From the NCBI GenBank assembly GCA_023247895.1, contig JAHFFP010000002.1:1-39594 (forward strand): a stretch of 39,594 nt of DNA. Direction: 5' to 3'. This stretch comes from Candidatus Omnitrophota bacterium (GTDB lineage Bacteria > Omnitrophota > Gorgyraeia > Gygaellales > UBA12090). This document shows positions 1,543 to 32,475 of the stretch, piece after piece. The first letter of the stretch is position 1. Every line of letters begins with the position of its first letter. The notes beneath the pieces are model-generated. The model was given only the letters and a program-made list of their open reading frames with translations. It had not been told where the DNA came from and made no database searches. The position numbers and the translations under genes were made by a program.

Positions 1543-3678
1543 ATGGCCATTACCCTCATCATCTTAGGATTTTGCTCCCTTATTTGGCAATTCGCATCCT
1601 TAAGAGAATTACAAACCACCTTTTCCGGCAACGAACTATCTTTAAGCATAATATTATTCTGCTGGCTGGCAGGTTCAGCCATTGGCGCTTTTGTAAGCAG
1701 GTATCTCCTTTGGCAGCGAAATGCCCTTAAAAATACACCGCAAAAGCTTTCTCGGCTGCTTGGCGCTATCTTATTCTTAAACTCATTCTTATGCTTTTTG
1801 AGTATATTTTTGATCCGGAGCCTGAAATTATTCTTAGGGATAAGCCCCTTTGAAATACTCCAGCCTCTACAAATGCTCCTTATCTCAAGCCTCGCGACTA
1901 TCCCTCAAACAATCTGTATCGGCATATCATTCATCCTTATATGCGCACTCATCCAAAATCCCTTAAAAGCCTACTGTAGGGAAGCATTCGGGGCATTCCT
2001 TGCAGGGCTCTTAAGCCTTATCTTACTAAAATATTTTAATAGTTGGGAAATTATCTGGCTTTGCTCAAGCCTGTTCCTTTTGGCTATTGTGTGTATCAAA
2101 CCCTGTTCTCGCTTCTTTCGGGCTATAGCGATACTTACCTTCATTGCCTTAACCCTCTTGCCACCTCTGGGCATTCTTACACAATTAGAAAACTACACCA
2201 ACAGTTTACGCTTTAAGCCAGAGCACGTAATTGCGTCTCTTAACTCTATGTATGCCAATATCGCCCTTACCCGCAGCAACCAGCATTACAGCCTTTACGA
2301 AAATGGAAAACTCTCCTTCACCACAGAAGATACAGAGGCCTTAGAAGAGTTTGCCCATATGATTTTACTACATCATCCCCAGCCAAAGAAAATATTGCTT
2401 ATCGGCGGAGGAACTTCAGGGCTGCTTGCTGAAATCCTGAAGCATCCGGTTGAGTCAATTGAATATCTTGAGCCGGATGAAAAACTTATATATACAAGCC
2501 TGCGCTATATACCTCAGGCTAGAGGCTATGGATTAACCGACAAAAGAGTTACCCTCTACCACAGAGATGCCCGGTCATTTATCAAAACAGCCCATACAAA
2601 ATACGATTGCGTTATCCTTAATATGGCAGACCCTTCAAGCTTACAGCAAAACCGTTTCTTTACCGTCGAATTCTTTCAAGAGATAAAGCGTATTTTAAAT
2701 CCCGATGGGACATTTAGCTTAGCCTTGAGCTCAAAAGAAGACATTTTAAGCGGCCAAATCCTCGCCTACAACACAAGCCTGTATAAAACGGCAAAATCAG
2801 TATTTAAAAATATTACCATCCTGCCTGGAGAACGCCTCATTCTTATTTGTTCGCTTAAGGTTATGCCACAGGCTCCCCCCGAAGAACTCATTCAAAGATT
2901 TCGAGAAAGAAATATCACTACCGTCTATTTTACCCCTGAATACCTTCACGCAAAGTTATTCAGGCAAGGCTATATTCAGGAAAGACTTAATGCCTTTCAA
3001 AGCCGTACCGCTCTTAATCAAGATTACTTTCCTCACGGATTTTTCTATTATCTATGCGTCTGGGATAAACAAAGCTGGCTTAGTTTTAACCGTCTATGGC
3101 AGGCAACGGGACGCATAAATTTCTTATATTGGGGTGCGCTCATTCTGCTTTTATACTTTATCTTTCGTAGGAATACCGCTAAGGCGGTAATACTTACCAG
3201 CGGCTTTACAGGAATAGCCTTAGAAATCATTATAAGCTTTATCTTCCAAATTAATTTTGGCTTTTTATATTATCGCCTGGGTGTAATAGTGGCGAGTTTT
3301 ATGTTAGGACTGTCTTTGGGAAGCATTTGTTCGATATATGCGCTTAAAAGAAGTATCCCCTGGAAAACAATAGCATGTTCCCTGGAAATTTCTCTTGGAA
3401 TCATAGCGATTGCATTATTCTTCTTGTTACGGCAAGATCAGCTTGTGTACTTTGCGGCTACTTTGCTGATAGGCTTCTTGACGGGGGTTGAATTTGGGCT
3501 ATTTTACAACCAGTTTAGCGCACATACGGTATATATACTTGATTTGACAGGAGCCTGCATAGGCAGCCTCCTCACAGGCCTCGTTATCATCCCTATGTTA
3601 GGAATATACAAAGCCTGCATCGCAATAGCCTTAACTAAGTTTATTGCACTTGTTTTTCTGAGAACACAAGCGCGCTAA
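1543..3678 (+). CDS. Polytopic membrane protein with embedded spermidine synthase-like (aminopropyltransferase) domain
   Basis: 711 aa; N- and C-terminal hydrophobic blocks flank a soluble domain with YENGKLSF, KKILLIGGGTSGLLAEILKHPVESIEYLEPDEKL, YDCVILNMADPSSLQQNRFFTVEFFQEIKRILNPDGTF. Confidence 0.82.
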   Translation: MAITLIILGFCSLIWQFASLRELQTTFSGNELSLSIILFCWLAGSAIGAFVSRYLLWQRNALKNTPQKLSRLLGAILFLNSFLCFLSIFLIRSLKLFLGISPFEILQPLQMLLISSLATIPQTICIGISFILICALIQNPLKAYCREAFGAFLAGLLSLILLKYFNSWEIIWLCSSLFLLAIVCIKPCSRFFRAIAILTFIALTLLPPLGILTQLENYTNSLRFKPEHVIASLNSMYANIALTRSNQHYSLYENGKLSFTTEDTEALEEFAHMILLHHPQPKKILLIGGGTSGLLAEILKHPVESIEYLEPDEKLIYTSLRYIPQARGYGLTDKRVTLYHRDARSFIKTAHTKYDCVILNMADPSSLQQNRFFTVEFFQEIKRILNPDGTFSLALSSKEDILSGQILAYNTSLYKTAKSVFKNITILPGERLILICSLKVMPQAPPEELIQRFRERNITTVYFTPEYLHAKLFRQGYIQERLNAFQSRTALNQDYFPHGFFYYLCVWDKQSWLSFNRLWQATGRINFLYWGALILLLYFIFRRNTAKAVILTSGFTGIALEIIISFIFQINFGFLYYRLGVIVASFMLGLSLGSICSIYALKRSIPWKTIACSLEISLGIIAIALFFLLRQDQLVYFAATLLIGFLTGVEFGLFYNQFSAHTVYILDLTGACIGSLLTGLVIIPMLGIYKACIAIALTKFIALVFLRTQAR

Positions 3679-5236
3679 AAACAAATATTTCAGTGTTATT
3701 CTCTTTCCATGCGTCAGAAGGAAGCCCTGCTTTATGCAGGCATAAATTAGATAAGAATTCTTCCTTTGACCAACCGGTCTCAATAGCTACCTGAGGTAAA
3801 AATACACCTTGATTCCACCCTTGGCGCACCAATACCCCATGAGTACCCAAGATAAACTCATCAATAGCACGGATCTTCTTTAGCGGCGATAATACTGACA
3901 CCTCAATCTCTATATCTTTAAGCTCATCCTTAGCAACGGGCGCAAATCGAGGATCCCCGGTTGCAGATTCTATAGCCATATCTCTGACTGTTTCAAAAAG
4001 GGGTTTCTGCCCCACAATGTTGCCAATACAACCTCTTAATTCACCATGGGCATGCAATGTGACAAACGCGCCGTTTATCTCTTTGAGCCTAGGGTCATCT
4101 TCAACAAAGTGTAAGCGCCTGCCGCTTGAAATATATTCTTCTATGGCCTTACGGGCGATTTCCAAAAGCCTTTTTTCCTGCGGTATAGTGAGCATGCTTT
4201 CCTCGCTTTTTTCTTCCTTTCTAACCTCGGTACTTGTTTCTTGACCACTAATTATAGCCGATGCATAACCAACGGTCCAGACCCCTTTTTCCCTGTTTCC
4301 GGTAACTATTGCTGAATTGGTGTAGTGTAAAAGGCTATAGTGAGTATAGCCTAATCTTTGTGCGGCAATAACCGCGGTAACTATCGGCAATCCTCCGCAC
4401 ATTTGAATTGTCCCTGCCCTTAAGCAATCGTAAATATCTTGTGCAGACAGAGCCTCAAGATGCGACAAGGTAAGCCTATCGACTGCCTCTGTCTCCTTAT
4501 AATCATAGCTATGCATAAGGTCTGTTGAAGCCACTACCAACACATCACGCCGAGCGCCAATTGCTTTTACAATATTATTTGCCAAATTATCTAAGGCCTC
4601 AAAAGCACAGTCGCCAATAACAATCGGAACAATCTTAAAGCCTGTGAGCGCCCTTTGCAAAAAAGGCAATTGAACCTCAAGGGAATGTTCCTTGGCAAAG
4701 GCTTGAGGGATAAATTCTATAGATTGAGAAGGATTGGTTATCTTCTGCGTAAAGCTTGAGTCTATTTCTATATCGCCTAAAGGAGTACGGAATTTTCCCT
4801 CCTTATACACCGAGATTTTATTAAACGCATAGTAATGGCTTGGCGCTAAGATAATTACCGTCGTATAGGGTTTATCCTTGATTGCCTTATATCCAAAAGC
4901 AGCGGTGCCCCCGGAAAACGCATAGCCGGCATGAGGGGAAATCAGGCAAAAAATATCGCCTTTTATCTCTGGAAGTGAAACCTTAGCGATAAGATTATCT
5001 ATCAAAGATGAGAGGGCGTTTCTATTTTGGGGATAGAACTGCCCGGCAACATTGGGCCCTTTTATATCTTGGGTAAAAGCGTTTAGAGGATGGAGGATAG
5101 CGGATAGAAGATAGAAAAGAAATAAAAAGAGCCTTGCCAACCCTCTCCCTGCCTGTCCGGCAGGCAGGCGCTCTACGCTATGCGCTCGCCCAAACGCCTT
5201 CAATCTTTTCATTGCAGAATTTACACCTGCCATCAA
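3641..5236 (-). CDS. AmmeMemoRadiSam system fused B (Memo) + A (AMMECR1) protein with N-terminal signal peptide-like segment
   Basis: Memo half: GQFYPQNRNAL, CLISPHAGYAFSGGTAAFGYKAI, IILAPSHYY, EHSLEVQLPFLQ, VVASTDLMHSYDYKETEAVD. AMMECR1 half: GAFVTLHAHGELRGCIGNI, ATGDPRFAPV, EIEVSVLSPL, GVFLPQVAIETGW. Track start 5236 overlaps the radical SAM gene by 59 bp; a TTG at 5138-5140 (MARLFLFLFYLLSAILHPLNAF) would start directly at the signal peptide. Confidence 0.88.
   Translation of the reverse strand: MMAGVNSAMKRLKAFGRAHSVERLPAGQAGRGLARLFLFLFYLLSAILHPLNAFTQDIKGPNVAGQFYPQNRNALSSLIDNLIAKVSLPEIKGDIFCLISPHAGYAFSGGTAAFGYKAIKDKPYTTVIILAPSHYYAFNKISVYKEGKFRTPLGDIEIDSSFTQKITNPSQSIEFIPQAFAKEHSLEVQLPFLQRALTGFKIVPIVIGDCAFEALDNLANNIVKAIGARRDVLVVASTDLMHSYDYKETEAVDRLTLSHLEALSAQDIYDCLRAGTIQMCGGLPIVTAVIAAQRLGYTHYSLLHYTNSAIVTGNREKGVWTVGYASAIISGQETSTEVRKEEKSEESMLTIPQEKRLLEIARKAIEEYISSGRRLHFVEDDPRLKEINGAFVTLHAHGELRGCIGNIVGQKPLFETVRDMAIESATGDPRFAPVAKDELKDIEIEVSVLSPLKKIRAIDEFILGTHGVLVRQGWNQGVFLPQVAIETGWSKEEFLSNLCLHKAGLPSDAWKENNTEIFVFSALVFSEKQVQ
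5085..5119. repeat. Heptanucleotide tandem repeat encoding the signal peptide core of the Memo-AMMECR1 protein
   Basis: agaggat|ggaggat|agcggat|agaagat|agaaaag; minus-strand translation LFYLLSAILHPL. Confidence 0.72.
5148..5168. repeat. GC-rich palindromic element copy at the radical SAM / Memo gene junction
   Basis: cctgcctgtccggcaggcagg; encodes LPAGQAG if the upstream start of the Memo gene is used. Confidence 0.75.
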
Positions 5237-6386: not shown

Positions 6387-6527
6387 AGAAATACAGGTTT
6401 AAGAATTAAGAACTAAGATTTAAGAAAAATAGCGGAAATGCAAACGCTGCTTTCGTTTACCTCTAATTTTCTATTATAAATGTAGCATAAAAAGGCGGGA
6501 TTTTCAAGAATCCAGGCTCACTACGCT

Positions 6528-18053: not shown

Positions 18054-20426
18054 TTATTGGCCTTTTTTGTTTCTTGAGAAGTATTTCTCCTTAATTATTT
18101 CTATCCTTTCCCGGGCAAATTTTGATTCTTCCATTTCAAGAGAAGATATCCTTTCATAGACGCCAATTGCTGCCTGCCAATTTTCCTGATTTTCATATAT
18201 TTTACCGCAGCGCAATAGCCCTTTCACCATTAAAACCTTATCCTCACCGATATCCAAATATCCTTGCGCCGCCTCACGCAGCCTTCCGGATCCTTCTAAG
18301 CACTCGGCAATTCTAAATTTTAGCTGAGGGATATCCACACCTTCTTCGCGTAAACTTTCACGATAATATACCAGCGCTTCCTCAAATTTACCTACATCCC
18401 GATAGGAATCTCCAATCTTAGGATAGTAACGGCCTTTATCCCCTGATATCTTTTTAAATGCATCCTTTGCTTCTATGTATTTTTCTTCCTTCACAAAGCA
18501 TATCCCCAACATATAGTATGCATCGAAAAGTAAAGGCGCGTTCGGTTTACTGTTTACCAGTTCAGATAAATACCGCCGGCTCAAAGACAGCTTATGCTCT
18601 TCAAAATAATGTTCTGCAAGCCTGAATAAAATTATACCGGTAATTTCCGCATCAGAATATTTAGAACGCAAAAGCTCTAATTTTTTCAAGGCATCGTCTT
18701 TATGCTGTAAATAATACAAGCAATCGGCCATTTCAAATTCTGCATGGGCCAAAGTACGCGCCTGGGCTCCAGAAGTAAGTACCGCCTTAAAAATATCATA
18801 GGCATCCTGAAATCTTCCCAAAGACTTAAGGCTTAACCCTTCCCAAAGCAATGCCTGCATCCTTAATGCACCTTGAGGGTATTTACTCGCAAACTCTTTA
18901 AAATGAAGGTAGCTGCCGGTAAAATCACCCTCCTCATAATATGTCTTTCCTAAATAAAAATATGCCTCTTCACTTACCTCTGAGTGCGGATATCGAGTAA
19001 GCAATGACTTAAATACATCTTCGGACTCCTGGTAACGTTTCAAATTTAAAAAGGATACGCCTAAACTTTGCTTAAAGAACACGCACCTCTGACAATCGGG
19101 ATATTTTCTTAATAGCTCTTGATATATACTTGCTGCCTTCTGCGCATTGCCTGATTTTTCATATACCTCGGCTACTTTGGCTAAGCTTGAGATCTTTAGG
19201 TTTTCATCGGTTACGCCCTCTGCCAAGGAAGAAAATTCAAGAGCTGCTTCTTCTAATCTGTTATCCATATAATAGCTTAATCCCAAGCCATAATGCAGCC
19301 GGGACATCTGAGAACTATTACTTTCACCGACAGCATACTGTGCGGCTTCTTTATATTCAGCGGCTGCTTGCGAATAATTGCCCAAGGCATAGAGCGCTTC
19401 GGCTTTCCCCACATAGGCGTCAAAACGCACCTGCGGGCTTTTGGCTCGCGTTAACAGATTCTTATAGGCATCGAGTGATTGGATAAATTCTGAGTTCATC
19501 TGAAAAAGCAGGGCTTCACCAAGAAGCGCATACTCTAGAGTTTTCTCATCGCTTTGGCTAACCTTTAAGGCATCAAAGCTTGCCTTTGCTTTTATAAGCT
19601 CATTAGATTTTAAATAACTCCAGCCTAACCCCACATAAATCAAATTCGTAAAACTGCTGTCGACGGACTCCTCAAGTGCCTGAGTATAGTTATCTATAGC
19701 GCAAGGATACTCCCCAAGATAGAAACAACTCTCCGCTAAATAAAATTTCAAGAAAGAGGCCTTTTTTTTATCATTGGTAAAATTTCTTGGCGCATCTGGA
19801 GCCATCTGCTGTTCTATATATTCTTTCAGCTTTGCATAAGACTTCAGGTTATAAAAACATTCTATAATCTTTACCTCGGCATTCTCTCTTAATGCATCCA
19901 TAGGGTATTTGCTCTTAAACTCCCTAAACCTCTCCTCTGATTCTAAATACTTGCCCTGCTCAAATAGGCACCACGCCAAAGAATATAACGCTGAAAGCGC
20001 ATAAGAAGATTGGGGATATTGCGAAAGCAGCTTATCATAAAAATCATACGCGCGGGCAAAATCGTTAGTTTTAAAATAGGCCTCAGCTATCCAGAAAAAT
20101 AACGCATCCTGAATACTTTTGGCACCTTGTAACGGCAAAAGTGTAGTGAAATGAGCAATTGCCTTAGGGTATTCTTTACGGTAAAAATAGCATTGCCCGA
20201 TATGCAGATTTGCTTCAGCCGCCAAAGGGCTCAGAGGGAATTTTCCCACGAAGCCATTAAAAAGCTTGAGGCTGGTATCGTAAAAACCCTCCTCAAAAGC
20301 GTCTTTGGCAACAAACAATTCATCCTTTTCCTCTTTTGACGCTTCTTGGGCAAAACATACTACAGAAAACAGAAGATAGAAAATGGAAAGCAGAAGATAG
20401 ATTCTGTGATTTATCGCTCGGCACAT
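18054..20426 (-). CDS. Large exported tetratricopeptide-repeat protein
   Basis: Signal peptide (IYLLLSIFYLLFSVVCFAQE) then many TPR units such as AEANLHIGQCYFYRKEYPKAIAHF, AEAYFKTNDFARAYDFYDKLLSQYP, YLGKTYYEEGDFTGSYLHFKEFASKYP. Confidence 0.9.
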   Translation of the reverse strand: MCRAINHRIYLLLSIFYLLFSVVCFAQEASKEEKDELFVAKDAFEEGFYDTSLKLFNGFVGKFPLSPLAAEANLHIGQCYFYRKEYPKAIAHFTTLLPLQGAKSIQDALFFWIAEAYFKTNDFARAYDFYDKLLSQYPQSSYALSALYSLAWCLFEQGKYLESEERFREFKSKYPMDALRENAEVKIIECFYNLKSYAKLKEYIEQQMAPDAPRNFTNDKKKASFLKFYLAESCFYLGEYPCAIDNYTQALEESVDSSFTNLIYVGLGWSYLKSNELIKAKASFDALKVSQSDEKTLEYALLGEALLFQMNSEFIQSLDAYKNLLTRAKSPQVRFDAYVGKAEALYALGNYSQAAAEYKEAAQYAVGESNSSQMSRLHYGLGLSYYMDNRLEEAALEFSSLAEGVTDENLKISSLAKVAEVYEKSGNAQKAASIYQELLRKYPDCQRCVFFKQSLGVSFLNLKRYQESEDVFKSLLTRYPHSEVSEEAYFYLGKTYYEEGDFTGSYLHFKEFASKYPQGALRMQALLWEGLSLKSLGRFQDAYDIFKAVLTSGAQARTLAHAEFEMADCLYYLQHKDDALKKLELLRSKYSDAEITGIILFRLAEHYFEEHKLSLSRRYLSELVNSKPNAPLLFDAYYMLGICFVKEEKYIEAKDAFKKISGDKGRYYPKIGDSYRDVGKFEEALVYYRESLREEGVDIPQLKFRIAECLEGSGRLREAAQGYLDIGEDKVLMVKGLLRCGKIYENQENWQAAIGVYERISSLEMEESKFARERIEIIKEKYFSRNKKGQ
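20362..20403. repeat. Degenerate heptanucleotide tandem repeat (6 units) encoding the signal peptide core of the TPR protein
   Basis: acagaaa|acagaag|atagaaa|atggaaa|gcagaag|atagatt. Confidence 0.75.
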
Positions 20427-20446: not shown

Positions 20447-23233
20447 TTATTCGGATAATATCTTCTTTAAATAACTTCCGGTATAGGATTCTTTAGAGCG
20501 CGCCACCTCCAAAGGGCTTCCGCAGGCAACCACAGTGCCTCCCCGCTCTCCTCCCTCGGGGCCCAAATCAATAATATAATCCGAACATTTTATTACGTCT
20601 AAATTGTGTTCGATGACAATCACCGTGTTGCCCTTTTCAACTAAACGGTGCAGCACAAATAATAGTTTATCCACATCGGCAAAATGCAAACCCGTGGTCG
20701 GCTCATCTAAGATATAAAGCGTATTTCCCGTCGAGCGCTTGCTTAATTCCGATGAAAGTTTGACCCGCTGCGCTTCACCGCCGGAAAGCGTAGTTGCAGA
20801 TTGGCCAAGCTGAATATACCCCAGGCCCACGTCATAAAGAGTATCAAGGATGTTTTTTATCTTGGGGATATTCACAAAAAGGCTCACCGCATCTTCAACA
20901 GTCATATCCAACACTTGAGTAATAGAATTACCCTTATATTTCACCTCTAGTGTCTGCTCATTAAAACGCTTCCCTTGGCATATATCGCAGCGCACATAGA
21001 CATCCGGCAAGAAATGCATCTCTATTTTCTTGATCCCATCCCCTGCGCAGGCCTCACAGCGGCCGCCCTTTACGTTAAAAGAAAATCTGCCCGGTGTATA
21101 CCCCCGTACCTTAGCCTCTGGTAATTGGGCAAAGATATCGCGGATATAACTGTAGACACCGGTATAGGTAGCCGGGTTAGAGCGCGGAGTCCTGCCAATG
21201 GGAGACTGATCTACCACAATAACTTTATCTATTAACTGATACCCTTCTATTCCCTTATAGCTGCCTGCCTTTATTTTGCTCTTATAGAGCTTCTGCATAA
21301 GCGCAGGATACAAAATGTCGTAAATTAAAGTTGATTTTCCCGAACCGGAAACACCAGTCACACATACAAATAAACCCAGAGGAATCTCTATATCTATGTT
21401 TTTCAGGTTGTGCTCACGCGCACCGAATAACTTAAGCCGCGAACTGCCTTTGTCTTCCCTAGGGGTTTGCGAAGGGCATATTTGTAATTCTTTATTTAAG
21501 TATTTGGCAGTCAAAGATTGAGGGCACTTTAAAAGCTCTTTTATCGGGCCGTTAAAGATTACCTTTCCCCCATGCCGCCCTGCGCCGGGGCCTAAGTCTA
21601 CCACCCAATCAGCAAGGCGAATGGTCTCTTCGTCATGTTCAACGACAATCAAGGTATTACCCAAATCTCTCAATGCCTTAAGGGTAAAAAGAAGTTTATC
21701 ATTATCCCGATGATGCAGTCCTATACTTGGCTCATCCAATATATACAGCACACCCACCAATCCTGAGCCAACCTGAGTAGCTAAGCGTATACGCTGGGCC
21801 TCTCCTCCGGAAAGCGTGGAGCTAAGCCTGTCTAGCGTTAAGTAACTTAACCCGACATCCGCGCAAAATTTTAATTTTAGCCGTATTTCTTTGAGCACTT
21901 GATGCGCAATCAGCCTCTCGTTGCCGCTTAATTTCAAGTGCTCAAAGAAATCAAGGGCTTTCTCAATAGACATCTTCACCACATTATCAATTGAAAACCC
22001 TTGGATTTTAACACTGAGACTTTCCTTTTTAAGCCGGCTGCCCTTACATTCCGGACAAGGCTGGTTAGACATAAAACGGGAAATCTCTTCCTTTAAATAA
22101 TCGGATTTGGTCTCCTTAAACAACCGTTCTAAATGCGGGATTATTCCTTCGTATTTGCGCCAGCCAATCATCTGGGGGCTGCCATAAAGGATAATCTTCT
22201 GTTTATCTTTTGGGATTTTGTTAAACGGAGTTTCTTGGTCTATACGTAAGAACTCACATAATCCTCTTAAGAGGCTGCGGTAATACATAAGGTAGCCTCT
22301 GCCTCCTCTTTTCCAGGGAATAATTGCATCCATAATTGGTTTCTCTTTATCCGGGATAATAAAATCCAAATCAAACTCAAATTTCACCCCTAAACCATTA
22401 CAGGATTGACAAGCCCCGTACGGTGAGTTAAAAGAGAATATTCGCGGCTGGACCTCAGCATAACTTATGCCGCAGCTGGCACAGGCATATTCCTGGCTGT
22501 ACAAATAATCTTTTCCTTCACAAGAAATACTCACAATTCCTTTCCCTATTTTTAACGCAGTTTCAAGTGAATCCGTTAAACGCTTTTTATCTTCAAGCTT
22601 GACGATCGCTCTATCGACGACTACTTCAATATGATGGATTTTATATTTATCAAGTTTCGGAAAATTATCCAGTTCATACACCTTTCCATCTACCCTTAGC
22701 CGGGTGAAACCTGCCTTTTGCACTTGAGAAGGCATATCGCGGTATTCCCCTTTCTTGCCGCTGATTAAGGGCGCGAGTAATTCAATCCTGGAACCCTGCA
22801 ATGTGGAGAAAATCTCATGAATAATTTCATCCGAGCTCTGGCGGCTAATAGGCTGGCCGCAATTATAACAATGCACCTTGCCTATACGCGCAAACAAAAG
22901 ACGCAAGTAATCATAGATTTCCGTATGGGTGGCTACGGTCGAACGCGGGCTTCCGCCGGCAGTCCTCTGTTCTATGGAAATAGCCGGCGATAAGCCTTCT
23001 ATAGATTCCACATCCGGCTTCTGCAGCTGCTCTAAGAATTGGCGGGCGTAGCTAGAGAGGCTTTCCACATAGCGGCGCTGGCCTTCGGCATAAATGGTAT
23101 CAAAGGCAAGAGAGCTCTTGCCTGAGCCGGATAATCCGGTAACCACAATAAGCTTATTGCGGGGAAGGCTCAAGTCTATATTCTTTAAATTATGTACCTT
23201 AGCCCCGCGGATAATGATTTCGTTGCTTTGCAT
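20447..23233 (-). CDS. uvrA: Excinuclease ABC subunit A
   Basis: [38 protein letters not shown], two ABC signatures ([24 protein letters not shown]), zinc-finger CxxC pairs. Confidence 0.98.
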
Positions 23234-27829: not shown

Positions 27830-28705
27830 TTATAATAATCCGTACTCCTTTAACGCCTTCTTCAGCTTCTCCGCATTATCTGCTGCCATCTCGCACATGG
27901 GAAGACGTAAAGATGGTTCACACAACTTAAGTAACCCCATTGCGGTCTTTACTGGTATAGGATTAGTCTCAATAAACATTGCCTTAATTAGGGGCAATAG
28001 CTTATAATGCAGGCTTTGAGCCTTTTTTAAATCTCCCTTTTCAAATGCCTCAATCATATTCGCGACATCTCTAGGCACAATATTAGCAACTACTGAAATT
28101 ACCCCTGTCCCGCCTATTGCTAAAACAGGCAAGGTAAGTGAGTCATCTCCAGAAATAAGGGCAAACTCAGGAGGACAAATTGCTTTTATCCGAGACATCT
28201 GCTCTAACGAGCCAGATGCCTCCTTGACCCCTACGATATTTTTGCAGTCACTTGCTAATTTCGCTATTGTTTCAGGCTCAATATTAACTCCCGTGCGCGA
28301 GGCAATATTATAAAGAATCACCGGTATCTCCGCGCACTCACTTACCGCCTTAAAATGCAGGTATAAGCCACGTTGAGTGGGCCGGTTATAATAAGGCGCG
28401 ACATGCAAGGAGGCATCGGCTCCGGACTTCGCAGCCTGTTTGGTTAACATAACCGCTTCTTCAGTTGAGTTTGAACCGGTTCCGGCAATCACCGGAATTC
28501 TTTTTTCAGCTGCTTCTATCACCACCTCGATTACCCGCTCATGCTCAGCCCAAGATAAGGTTGCCGACTCACCCGTTGTCCCGCAAGGTACAATTGCCGA
28601 AGTCTTGTTTTTGATATGGAACTCAACTAAGCTCCTTAACCTCTTTTCATCCACTTTACCATTTAGAAACGGCGTAACAATTGCCACCATTGAGCCTTTA
28701 AACAT
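27830..28705 (-). CDS. dapA: 4-hydroxy-tetrahydrodipicolinate synthase
   Basis: GSMVAIVTPFLNGKVDEKRLRSLVEFHI, PCGTTGESATLSWAEH, VIAGTGSNSTEEAVMLTKQA, PYYNRPTQRGLYLHF, VILYNIASRTGVNI, VGVKEASG. Confidence 0.97.
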   Translation of the reverse strand: MFKGSMVAIVTPFLNGKVDEKRLRSLVEFHIKNKTSAIVPCGTTGESATLSWAEHERVIEVVIEAAEKRIPVIAGTGSNSTEEAVMLTKQAAKSGADASLHVAPYYNRPTQRGLYLHFKAVSECAEIPVILYNIASRTGVNIEPETIAKLASDCKNIVGVKEASGSLEQMSRIKAICPPEFALISGDDSLTLPVLAIGGTGVISVVANIVPRDVANMIEAFEKGDLKKAQSLHYKLLPLIKAMFIETNPIPVKTAMGLLKLCEPSLRLPMCEMAADNAEKLKKALKEYGLL

Positions 28706-29573
28706 AGTACTCTCCCCCGTAGACTATTCTTGCCTTTCCCTCAAGCCATACATTACTTACTTCATTATTTTCTCTCTTAAAATAAACTTTTAGGGTTTCT
28801 CCCCCCCTGGTTATCACATTTATTTTCTGCCGTGGACTGTGGACTTGCGCCGTAGGCGCATCCCTGCCCGTCCGGCAGGCGGGCGCCTGCGCAGGAGTTG
28901 ACTGCTGACTATACGCTATGGCCGAAGCTGCCGCTCCTGTGCCGCAGGCAAGGGTTTCATCCTCAACCCCGCGCTCATAGGTACGCACCTTAATAGTATC
29001 ATTACTAATGATTTCAACAAAATCCACATTTGTTCCCGCAGGGGCAAAACCTTCGTAGTAGCGGATTTCCCTTCCTATGGATGAAACATCAATCTCTTCA
29101 ATTCCTTCCACAAAAATAACCGCATGAGGAACACCGGTATTTATAGAATGTATCTTCATTTCTCGATCGTTTATCTTTATCGGCACTCCCGCTTGATAAT
29201 CTCTTGGCTCAGTCAACTTAATCCGCACATTATTGCCTGCAACCCTTCCCTCAATTATCCCCGCCCCAGTCTCTAAACTTATCTTTGAGCGTCGAGCGTT
29301 GACCGTCGAGCGTCGGCTATAATACAACGCCAGACACCTTGCCCCATTGCCGCACATCTGGGCCTCAGAGCCATCGGCATTAAAAATACGCATCCTTATA
29401 TCGGCAATCTTAGATTTCTCTAGGAAAAGCAACCCATCCGCCCCGGCTCCGAATTTGCGGTCACATATCCTTTTAGCGAAATTCGGTAAACGGCAAGCGG
29501 TAAACGGTACACGGTTTATAATTATAAAGTCATTTCCAGAAGCTACTACTTTTGTAAATTCTATCTTTCTCAT
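28698..29573 (-). CDS. dapF: Diaminopimelate epimerase with repeat-derived loop insertions
   Basis: FTKVVASGNDFIII, FGAGADGLLFLE, MRIFNADGSEAQMCGNGARCLA, NTGVPHAVIFVE, GTNVDFVEI, VRTYERGVEDETLACGTGAAASAIA. Start trimmed to MRKIEF (ATG at 29571-29573). Confidence 0.94.
   Translation of the reverse strand: MRKIEFTKVVASGNDFIIINRVPFTACRLPNFAKRICDRKFGAGADGLLFLEKSKIADIRMRIFNADGSEAQMCGNGARCLALYYSRRSTVNARRSKISLETGAGIIEGRVAGNNVRIKLTEPRDYQAGVPIKINDREMKIHSINTGVPHAVIFVEGIEEIDVSSIGREIRYYEGFAPAGTNVDFVEIISNDTIKVRTYERGVEDETLACGTGAAASAIAYSQQSTPAQAPACRTGRDAPTAQVHSPRQKINVITRGGETLKVYFKRENNEVSNVWLEGKARIVYGGEYYV
28863..28883. repeat. Short GC-rich palindromic element copy, in frame in dapF
   Basis: cctgcccgtccggcaggcggg, imperfect palindrome; translated as CRTGR in the dapF frame. 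Confidence 0.7.
29287..29321. repeat. Heptanucleotide tandem repeat in frame in dapF
   Basis: gagcgtc|gagcgtt|gaccgtc|gagcgtc|ggctata, translated as SRRSTVNARRS. Confidence 0.75.
29484..29518. repeat. Heptanucleotide tandem repeat in frame in dapF
   Basis: cggtaaa|cggcaag|cggtaaa|cggtaca|cggttta, translated as NRVPFTACRLP. Confidence 0.78.
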
Positions 29574-29771
29574 CTTATTACCCTTCCACACCTGTGCGGT
29601 GTGGAAATAACACCCCAGTGCTTGCGTTAACTTAATCCCTCATAGTCGCGGAAGTTAACTCCGCACTTCCCTGCAGGCGCGAGGGGGGGGGCAATCTCCC
29701 CCGCACCCCCTTACTGCACTATCTAACCTAATAAAACTTAATGTAACAGTGCACTAGGGGAGTAAAAAAGG

Positions 29772-31058
29772 TTATTTTAAAAACTCAAGGATTACGTCCT
29801 TACGCACCAAATCCACATAGCTATCGCGCTTACGCACAGTATAAAATTTATTCCCTTTAACCATAATCTCCATAGGCCTGAGACGGCAATTATAGTTTGA
29901 AGCCATAGAAAACCCGTATGCGCCAGCGCTCATTATCGCCAAGAACTCGCCTTCAATTACTTTAGGCAAAATCCTGTCTTTAGCGAAAAAGTCTCCGGAT
30001 TCGCATATTGGGCCGACAACGTCGTATTGCGCATTGCCTGCCTTGCCGGCAGGCAGGCGTTTTGCGTTTTGCGTTTTATACTCTAAAGGTAAAATTTCAT
30101 GATAAGCGCCATATAAGGATGGGCGAATCAAATCATTCATCCCGGCATCCACAATAACGAAATTCTTTAATGGGGTTTTCTTTACATAAAGTATCTTGGC
30201 AACTAATATACCGGCATTGCCCACAATAAACCTTCCGGGCTCTAAAATAACCTTCAAACCTGTATTTTTAAGAATCGGTAAAACTTTTTTAGCGAACTCA
30301 TCCGCAGTCTGAGGTTTTTCTTCGCTATAAATAATTCCCAAACCTCCGCCGATGTTAAGATATTCAATCCTGATTGCTTCTTTCCTTAATCTTTCGATAA
30401 ACCCCACTATTCTTCTCAACGCAAGGACATACGGCTGTGAATCAATGATCTGAGAGCCGATATGCATATGCAGCCCGTTGAATTGTACATGGCTTAACTT
30501 ACCTCTATTTTGAAGGATTCCGTACGCCGTATCAAAATCAATGCCGAATTTATTGGTAAGCTTTCCGGTCGTAATATAGCTATGTGTCTTAGGCTCCACA
30601 TCAGGATTTATCCTGAGAGCAACTGAGGCAATAACCCCTAAGTCACACGCTACCTTATTTATCAACTCAAGCTCAGGGAGTGACTCAACATTAAAAAATA
30701 GTATTTGTTTGGCAATTGCCTGACGGATTTCCTCTTCGGTCTTTCCCACTGAGGCGTAGACTATTTTCTTTGGATCACAGCCTACAAGAAGCGCCTTATA
30801 CAATTCTCCCCCTGAGACAATATCTAATCCTGAACCTGCCTTTACCAGGGTACGGCAGATACTAAGATTCGAATTTGCTTTCATTGAGTAGCAGATAAGC
30901 GGCTTTATCGGGCTAAAAGCCTTTTGCAATTTGCGAAAATGCCCTAAAAGCGTATTATAGCTATAAAGGTAAAAAGGCGTCGCCACCTTCTTAGCGATAT
31001 TAGAAATATTTACCGCTTCACAATAAAGCTGTTTATTTTTATATTTAAAGTCATGCAT
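29772..31058 (-). CDS. lysA: Diaminopimelate decarboxylase with in-frame palindrome/heptad insertion
   Basis: TPFYLYSYNTL, ICYSMKANSNLSICRTLVKAGSGLDIVSGGELYKAL, GLHMHIGSQI, YLNIGGGLGI, LEPGRFIVGNAG, VDAGMNDLIRPSLYGAYHEI, VVGPICESGDFFAKDR. Confidence 0.97.
   Translation of the reverse strand: MHDFKYKNKQLYCEAVNISNIAKKVATPFYLYSYNTLLGHFRKLQKAFSPIKPLICYSMKANSNLSICRTLVKAGSGLDIVSGGELYKALLVGCDPKKIVYASVGKTEEEIRQAIAKQILFFNVESLPELELINKVACDLGVIASVALRINPDVEPKTHSYITTGKLTNKFGIDFDTAYGILQNRGKLSHVQFNGLHMHIGSQIIDSQPYVLALRRIVGFIERLRKEAIRIEYLNIGGGLGIIYSEEKPQTADEFAKKVLPILKNTGLKVILEPGRFIVGNAGILVAKILYVKKTPLKNFVIVDAGMNDLIRPSLYGAYHEILPLEYKTQNAKRLPAGKAGNAQYDVVGPICESGDFFAKDRILPKVIEGEFLAIMSAGAYGFSMASNYNCRLRPMEIMVKGNKFYTVRKRDSYVDLVRKDVILEFLK
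30037..30077. repeat. GC-rich palindrome plus three perfect GCGTTTT heptads, in frame in lysA
   Basis: cctgccttgccggcaggcagg (30037-30057) directly followed by gcgtttt x3 (30057-30077); protein segment KTQNAKRLPAGKAGNAQ. Confidence 0.85.
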
Positions 31059-32427: not shown

Positions 32428-32440
32428 TTTTTCCTTCTTA

Positions 32441-32475
32441 CTATAGCCTATTGACTATTGACTATTGACTATTTT
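32441..32475. repeat. Heptanucleotide tandem repeat, argG-argH intergenic
   Basis: ctatagc|ctattga|ctattga|ctattga|ctatttt. Confidence 0.85.

Follow-up and report, generated by a model that had tools for sequence, protein, structure and literature searches.

Seven-base-pair repeats in signal peptides and enzyme loops of Candidatus Omnitrophota

Rickettsia palindromic elements form families of fixed sequence that are read in frame within housekeeping genes. In Neisseria, CTCTT units in the leader peptide switch the opa gene (PMC3960869, PMC3899988). Heptanucleotides are the most abundant class of long repeats in most bacterial genomes, and a 7-nt polymerase contact has been suggested, according to the parts of two reports available to us (PMC4679880, PMC4692102). 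The same parts describe 7-bp arrays that are abundant across the genome and mostly intergenic, namely STRR in Nostoc and Calothrix, GGGAATC in Xanthomonas, and TAACTGA in Beggiatoaceae (PMC4692102, PMC4679880); in Beggiatoaceae, intragenic heptads lie mostly at protein ends (PMC4679880). A search of open-licence papers found none on Omnitrophota repeats or on the turnover of signal peptides by unrelated arrays.

Here we analyze a window, meaning the whole 39,594-nucleotide stretch of a Candidatus Omnitrophota genome (GCA_023247895.1, contig JAHFFP010000002.1, positions 1 to 39,594), in which a 7-bp array codes part of the putative signal peptide of a TPR protein. As in opa, the unit shifts the reading frame and the array lies in the 5' coding region (codons 9–22). 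A long, perfect tract able to slip is found in some orthologues (e.g. loci L079 and L023) but not in the window, whose array is degenerate.

The TPR gene of the window

The TPR protein matches TPR_2/TPR_6, tol-pal YbgF and BamD-type TPR models, and its N-terminus reads MCRAINHRIYLLLSIFYLLFSVVCFA followed by QEASKEE. By eye and by hydropathy, this N-terminus has the parts of a Sec signal, with a charged n-region, a hydrophobic h-region and an AXA-like site at its end. On the minus strand, the codons ATC TAT CTT CTG CTT TCC ATT TTC TAT CTT CTG TTT TCT spell IYLLLSIFYLLFS (codons 9–21 of the ORF), and the array overall spans codons 9–22, IYLLLSI-FYLLFSV, inside the putative signal peptide. Both the heptad reading and its use in the signal peptide had been put forward in the initial annotation, and both hold. 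The IYLLLSIFYLLFS codons form about six imperfect 7-bp units with the consensus TTCTATT / TTTCTGT.

TRF reported a period of 7 with 4.9 copies, 74% matches and a score of 33. Within the first 81 nt of the gene, the period-7 segment score was 11.0, and the other short, non-multiple periods tested scored 2–4. Synonymous recoding with the genome's own codons reached 11.0 in 295 of 20,000 draws (1.5%), so part of the score comes from the 7-aa repeat itself; when the residues of the same peptide were shuffled as well as recoded, 7 of 20,000 draws (0.035%) reached it. Taken alone, this statistic is moderate evidence that suggests a repeat origin. We accept the array as real because the genome has an excess of runs at lag 7 and because these codons are occupied by a near-perfect (CTATTTT)n in L019, a relative of the same genus.

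Table 1. Repeat arrays of the window and the genes that bear or adjoin them
Feature	Position	Strand	Basis or context
TPR gene	18054..20426	-	790-aa putatively exported protein; profile matches, orthologue comparison
Putative signal peptide of TPR protein, MCRAINHRIYLLLSIFYLLFSVVCFA, cleaved before Q	20349..20426	-	by eye and hydropathy
Degenerate 7-bp tandem array coding h-region of TPR protein	20362..20403	-	codon reading, TRF, period scores
uvrA (UvrA equivalog)	20447..23233	-	upstream neighbour of TPR gene
Second heptad signal peptide, (TTCTATC)n coding FYLLSAILHPL	5084..5115	-	AmmeMemoRadiSam B/A protein (3641-5236)
Heptad array in DapF loop 1	29484..29515	-	DapF = 28698-29591
Heptad array in DapF loop 2	29285..29315	-	DapF = 28698-29591
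(AAAACGC)3 beside palindrome coding RLPAGKAGNA, LysA loop	30057..30077	-	LysA = 29772-31058
Intergenic (ACTATTG)4.9 array	32440..32473	.	repeat scan of window
Intergenic (TTAAGAA)4 array	6399..6426	.	repeat scan of window

Turnover of arrays among TPR orthologues

Almost every relative found by aligning proteins is labelled Candidatus Omnitrophota, and Omnitrophica WOR_2 bacterium GWF2_43_52 is the nearest. The TPR gene is present in 57 of 58 relatives and, wherever the junction was inspected, lies immediately downstream of uvrA; in most of 30 orthologues read as DNA, the C-terminal UvrA codons lie just upstream of it. We compared 89 distinct orthologue sequences, from one genome per species and mostly from MAGs, taking a 105-nt signal window from each and calling an array where a period-7 segment scored at least 10. 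Such arrays occurred in 19 of the 89 windows, compared with 0–1 at lags 4, 5, 8, 10, 11, 13, 16 and 17, and in mature-part windows of the same orthologues at about 1 per 1000. For the ten arrays with the highest scores, synonymous recoding did as well in 0–5 of 500 draws. Arrays covered 6–12% of the DNA between the uvrA end and the cleavage site and 0 of the 500 nt beyond; elsewhere in the intergenic DNA of these loci, coverage was 0.26%, far below that of the uvrA-TPR junction.

The units at this one site are diverse, comprising CTACGAA (L079), GCTTACA (L023), TTTCGAA (L094), CTATTTT (L019 and the window), TTATTGG-like (L101, L036), CTCTGTA (L145), TTCTGTC (L143), TTGCGYC (L020, L081), TTTGTGC (L138, L029), GTGAACT (L027) and GCTATCC (L041), and in several orthologues (L079, L023, L145 and L094) they form perfect arrays of 4–5 units. 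Comparison of the 89 orthologues, a check proposed with the initial annotation, found unrelated signals at the same place, many of them made from other heptads; the window's hydrophobic sequence was not found conserved with non-repetitive codons in distant orthologues. On a FastTree tree of the mature proteins, array presence or absence changes state about 13 times by parsimony (gains and losses pooled, no bootstrap).

Close pairs show this turnover directly. The mature parts of L079 and L096 are 90.7% identical and their signal peptides are unrelated, and L020 and L040, from the same genus, are 78% identical in their mature parts and have two different signal arrays. L075 and L079 (82% identical) align without gaps across the array, yet L079 there is a perfect (CTACGAA)n. 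In L025 and L138, which are 90.7% identical, the signal is conserved. The window (L001) and L019 are only 50% identical and share the array without gaps; the window's array is thus older than their split and has since decayed. Other repeat types were seen at two of these loci: a GGGGACGGGTTCA...TGAACCCGTCCCC palindrome at the uvrA-TPR junction of L019, and, at the N-terminus of L022, a repeat of CATTGCGAGG...GACGAAGCAATC type that has become part of the reading frame.

A hydrophobic N-terminal core is present in all 89 orthologues. Arrays have therefore rewritten an existing signal and not created export, contrary to the earlier suggestion that such tracts could supply export signals de novo. 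The idea that heptads are inherently suited to this role also failed: the units found did not exceed shuffled ones in hydrophobicity (23% compared with 30%), and signal-like ORFs were as common in random genomic DNA (3.6%) as in single arrays (3.5%). By a script's call, with L020 and L029 borderline, the array coincides with the hydrophobic core in 10 of the 19 orthologues, as had been proposed, and lies elsewhere in the other nine, past the core but ahead of the cleavage site in seven and in the n-region in two. In L027, the third GTGAACT unit reads GCGAACT, which removes an in-frame TGA and suggests selection on the frame.

Period 7 beyond the TPR gene

The assembly that contains the window is 721 kb in 28 contigs and 66% complete, and we analyzed about 580 kb of it in stretches. 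In these 580 kb there were 22 exact runs of 12 nt or longer at lag 7, compared with 0–3 at each lag not divisible by 7; no tandem period other than 7 is common in this genome. Tandem 7-bp units likewise exceeded other unit lengths in the orthologue windows and in a survey of 1474 genes from six genomes, for which genes and signal peptides were called by simple heuristics. In that survey, period-7 arrays occurred per 100 kb at a density of 44 in intergenic DNA, 27 in signal peptides, 8.5 in N-termini without a signal, 4.6 in C-termini and 3.7 in gene interiors, so that by these heuristic calls signal peptides are about sevenfold denser than interiors. The signal peptides held 7 arrays, the window's TPR gene supplying one, where 0.96 were expected at the interior rate (P = 7e-5). 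About 93 distinct 7-bp units were counted in the six genomes.

Other signal peptides carry arrays of their own. The LptE signal MKATLFLLSTFYFLLSTLFGC is coded by (TTTCTAC)n and the ApbE signal MKKSYQRKTILLVIGYWLLVIGLCGC by (TTATTGG)5; in orthologue sets, arrays were present in 4 of 30 LptE and 4 of 30 ApbE signals, some of them weak, with 0–2 at other lags. These two genes were chosen since one genome had an array, as were most of the other genes studied. BamA was chosen without such a prior sighting, and none of its 30 signal peptides had a period-7 array. In ten genomes each, the window's included, we found 6 period-7 arrays in AmmeMemoRadiSam B/A, 18 in DapF and 5 in LysA, compared with 0–2 at other lags. 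The n-region of the AmmeMemoRadiSam B/A protein contains an RLPAGQAGR palindrome, and relatives L308, L310 and L314 have other arrays there.

The DapF, LysA and AmmeMemoRadiSam arrays of the window lie in frame. The LysA loop is 48 nt long in five relatives, one of which has (GCGGAAA)5 and a second (ACGCAGG)n, the sequence in others being less repetitive, and DapF loop 3 follows the same pattern of differing arrays at constant length. The same sites in DapF and LysA are filled anew with different arrays, in some cases with the length unchanged, and the variability of the array-bearing segments suggests that they are surface loops. Loop 1 of DapF in L326 has an 8-bp array, (GCCGGTTT)n, in place of the heptad, so period 8 occurs too.

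Origin of the arrays and relation to described repeats

We think it probable that a process generating 7-bp repeats rewrites tolerant coding segments, with selection keeping frame, hydrophobicity and cleavage. Omnitrophota genomes of this order would keep producing 7-bp arrays of many unit sequences, most likely by frequent errors of DNA synthesis, through slippage or through repair synthesis that keeps a 7-nt register. Arrays would survive only where protein and regulation tolerate them and selection is weak, as between genes, in signal peptides and in a small number of surface loops, and purifying selection elsewhere would give them their distribution. At the TPR gene, they would arise at the uvrA-TPR junction and over the signal-peptide codons, and the survivors would be those that leave the frame open, the hydrophobic core in place, and the cleavage site and mature protein untouched. 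Because 7 and 3 have no common factor, an array codes for one and the same cyclic heptapeptide whichever of a strand's three frames is read, and a suitable array therefore works in any phase. In the window, a (TTCTATT)n array shared with the same-genus relative would have become the h-region and then decayed by point mutation. Against this account we count the higher array density at the uvrA-TPR junction than in other intergenic DNA, which it leaves unexplained, and the array-free BamA signals mean that tolerance alone fails to predict where arrays lie.

The periodicity might instead reflect no repeat process at all, if T-rich hydrophobic codons and convergent low-complexity signals mimicked period 7. 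The 1.5% of synonymous recodings that match the window's score are in keeping with such mimicry, which is possible for that single degenerate array; for the TPR family it is contradicted by the 0–1 of 89 windows with other periods, by the rarity with which recoding matches the ten strongest arrays, and by perfect arrays whose units are not strongly hydrophobic (L079, L023). Overall, we regard it as highly improbable. It is also quite unlikely that the site is a contingency locus at which slippage by one unit in the signal peptide toggles TPR export by frame shift. The opa leader pentamer does switch in this way (PMC3960869, PMC3899988), and the perfect arrays of L079, L023, L145 and L094 are of the slippage-prone kind. 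However, the window's array is too degenerate for frequent slippage, the TPR protein is near-universal in the order and no obvious surface antigen, and similar arrays sit in the housekeeping enzymes LysA and DapF, where switching off would be costly.

An unlikely alternative of another kind is that the arrays are hairpin elements of intergenic DNA (terminators, attenuators or selfish palindromes), one arm of which came to code the signal only as a by-product of insertion at the uvrA-TPR junction. A reverse-complement array lies within 100 bp (score at least 12) for 27% of 155 arrays, compared with 3% for shuffled units and 4.5% for partners in the same orientation; the loops are mostly shorter than 30 nt, RNA folding of four examples gave z of -6 to -8, and in L143 the two hairpin arms are the n-region and h-region codons. 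Three quarters of the arrays, however, have no partner above this threshold, the window's own included, and the DapF and LysA loops hold mostly single arrays.

Inverted heptad pairs that give strong hairpins were seen at L062:2087-2174, L062:16524-16599, L171:1294-1371, L172:6229-6302 and L143:2858-2946. We also considered whether an inverted pair is a ready-made signal, its A-rich arm coding a K-rich n-region and its T-rich arm an h-region. Single cases exist (L025, L029, L042), but the idea is not general, as signal-like ORFs occur in 15% of inverted pairs and in 13% of random genomic stretches.

Within the repeat-rewriting account, one feature differs from what simple slippage predicts, namely the replacement of arrays at equal length in the 48-nt LysA loop, in DapF loop 3 and between L075 and L079. 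A tentative extension, which we hold to be doubtful, is that new heptad arrays are written in place over tolerant coding segments by an active process linked to DNA synthesis in a 7-nt register, with length and frame kept. New protein sequence, in signals and enzyme loops alike, would then have a general source beyond slippage and drift.

The origin of new protein segments tends to be debated on the basis of old and rare events; in these genomes it can be watched, in mature parts 78–91% identical with unrelated repeat-made signals and in enzyme loops of the same length filled by different perfect arrays between species. Alignments of this kind suggest that simple repeats can replace signal peptides wholesale, export presumably being kept. 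More broadly, simple 7-bp repeats likely supply protein sequence wherever the protein tolerates them, with different repeats in each species. Signal and loop regions in such genomes are unusable for homology, and the bacterial bias towards 7 bp, which has been known for a long time, can now be tested at coding sites where frame and length are selected.

Compared with described systems, the Omnitrophota arrays resemble Neisseria opa in that a short, pyrimidine-rich repeat whose length is not a multiple of 3 codes part of a signal peptide. They differ in that opa keeps a single conserved unit, which serves to switch members of a family of surface antigens, whereas the units here are unrelated between orthologues, have often decayed, and occur both in enzymes and in a TPR protein that is near-universal. 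As with the heptads of Nostoc/Calothrix, Xanthomonas and Beggiatoaceae, 7-bp arrays are abundant across the genome and mostly intergenic; those genomes, in the parts of the reports available to us, have one or a few units each, compared with about 93 units in six genomes here, and the same parts report no counterpart to the turnover of signal peptides and enzyme loops. Like Rickettsia palindromic elements, the arrays are repeats that, translated in frame, add segments to the products of housekeeping genes. Unlike those elements, they are built from changing 7-bp units, sometimes beside a separate palindrome (RLPAGKAG).
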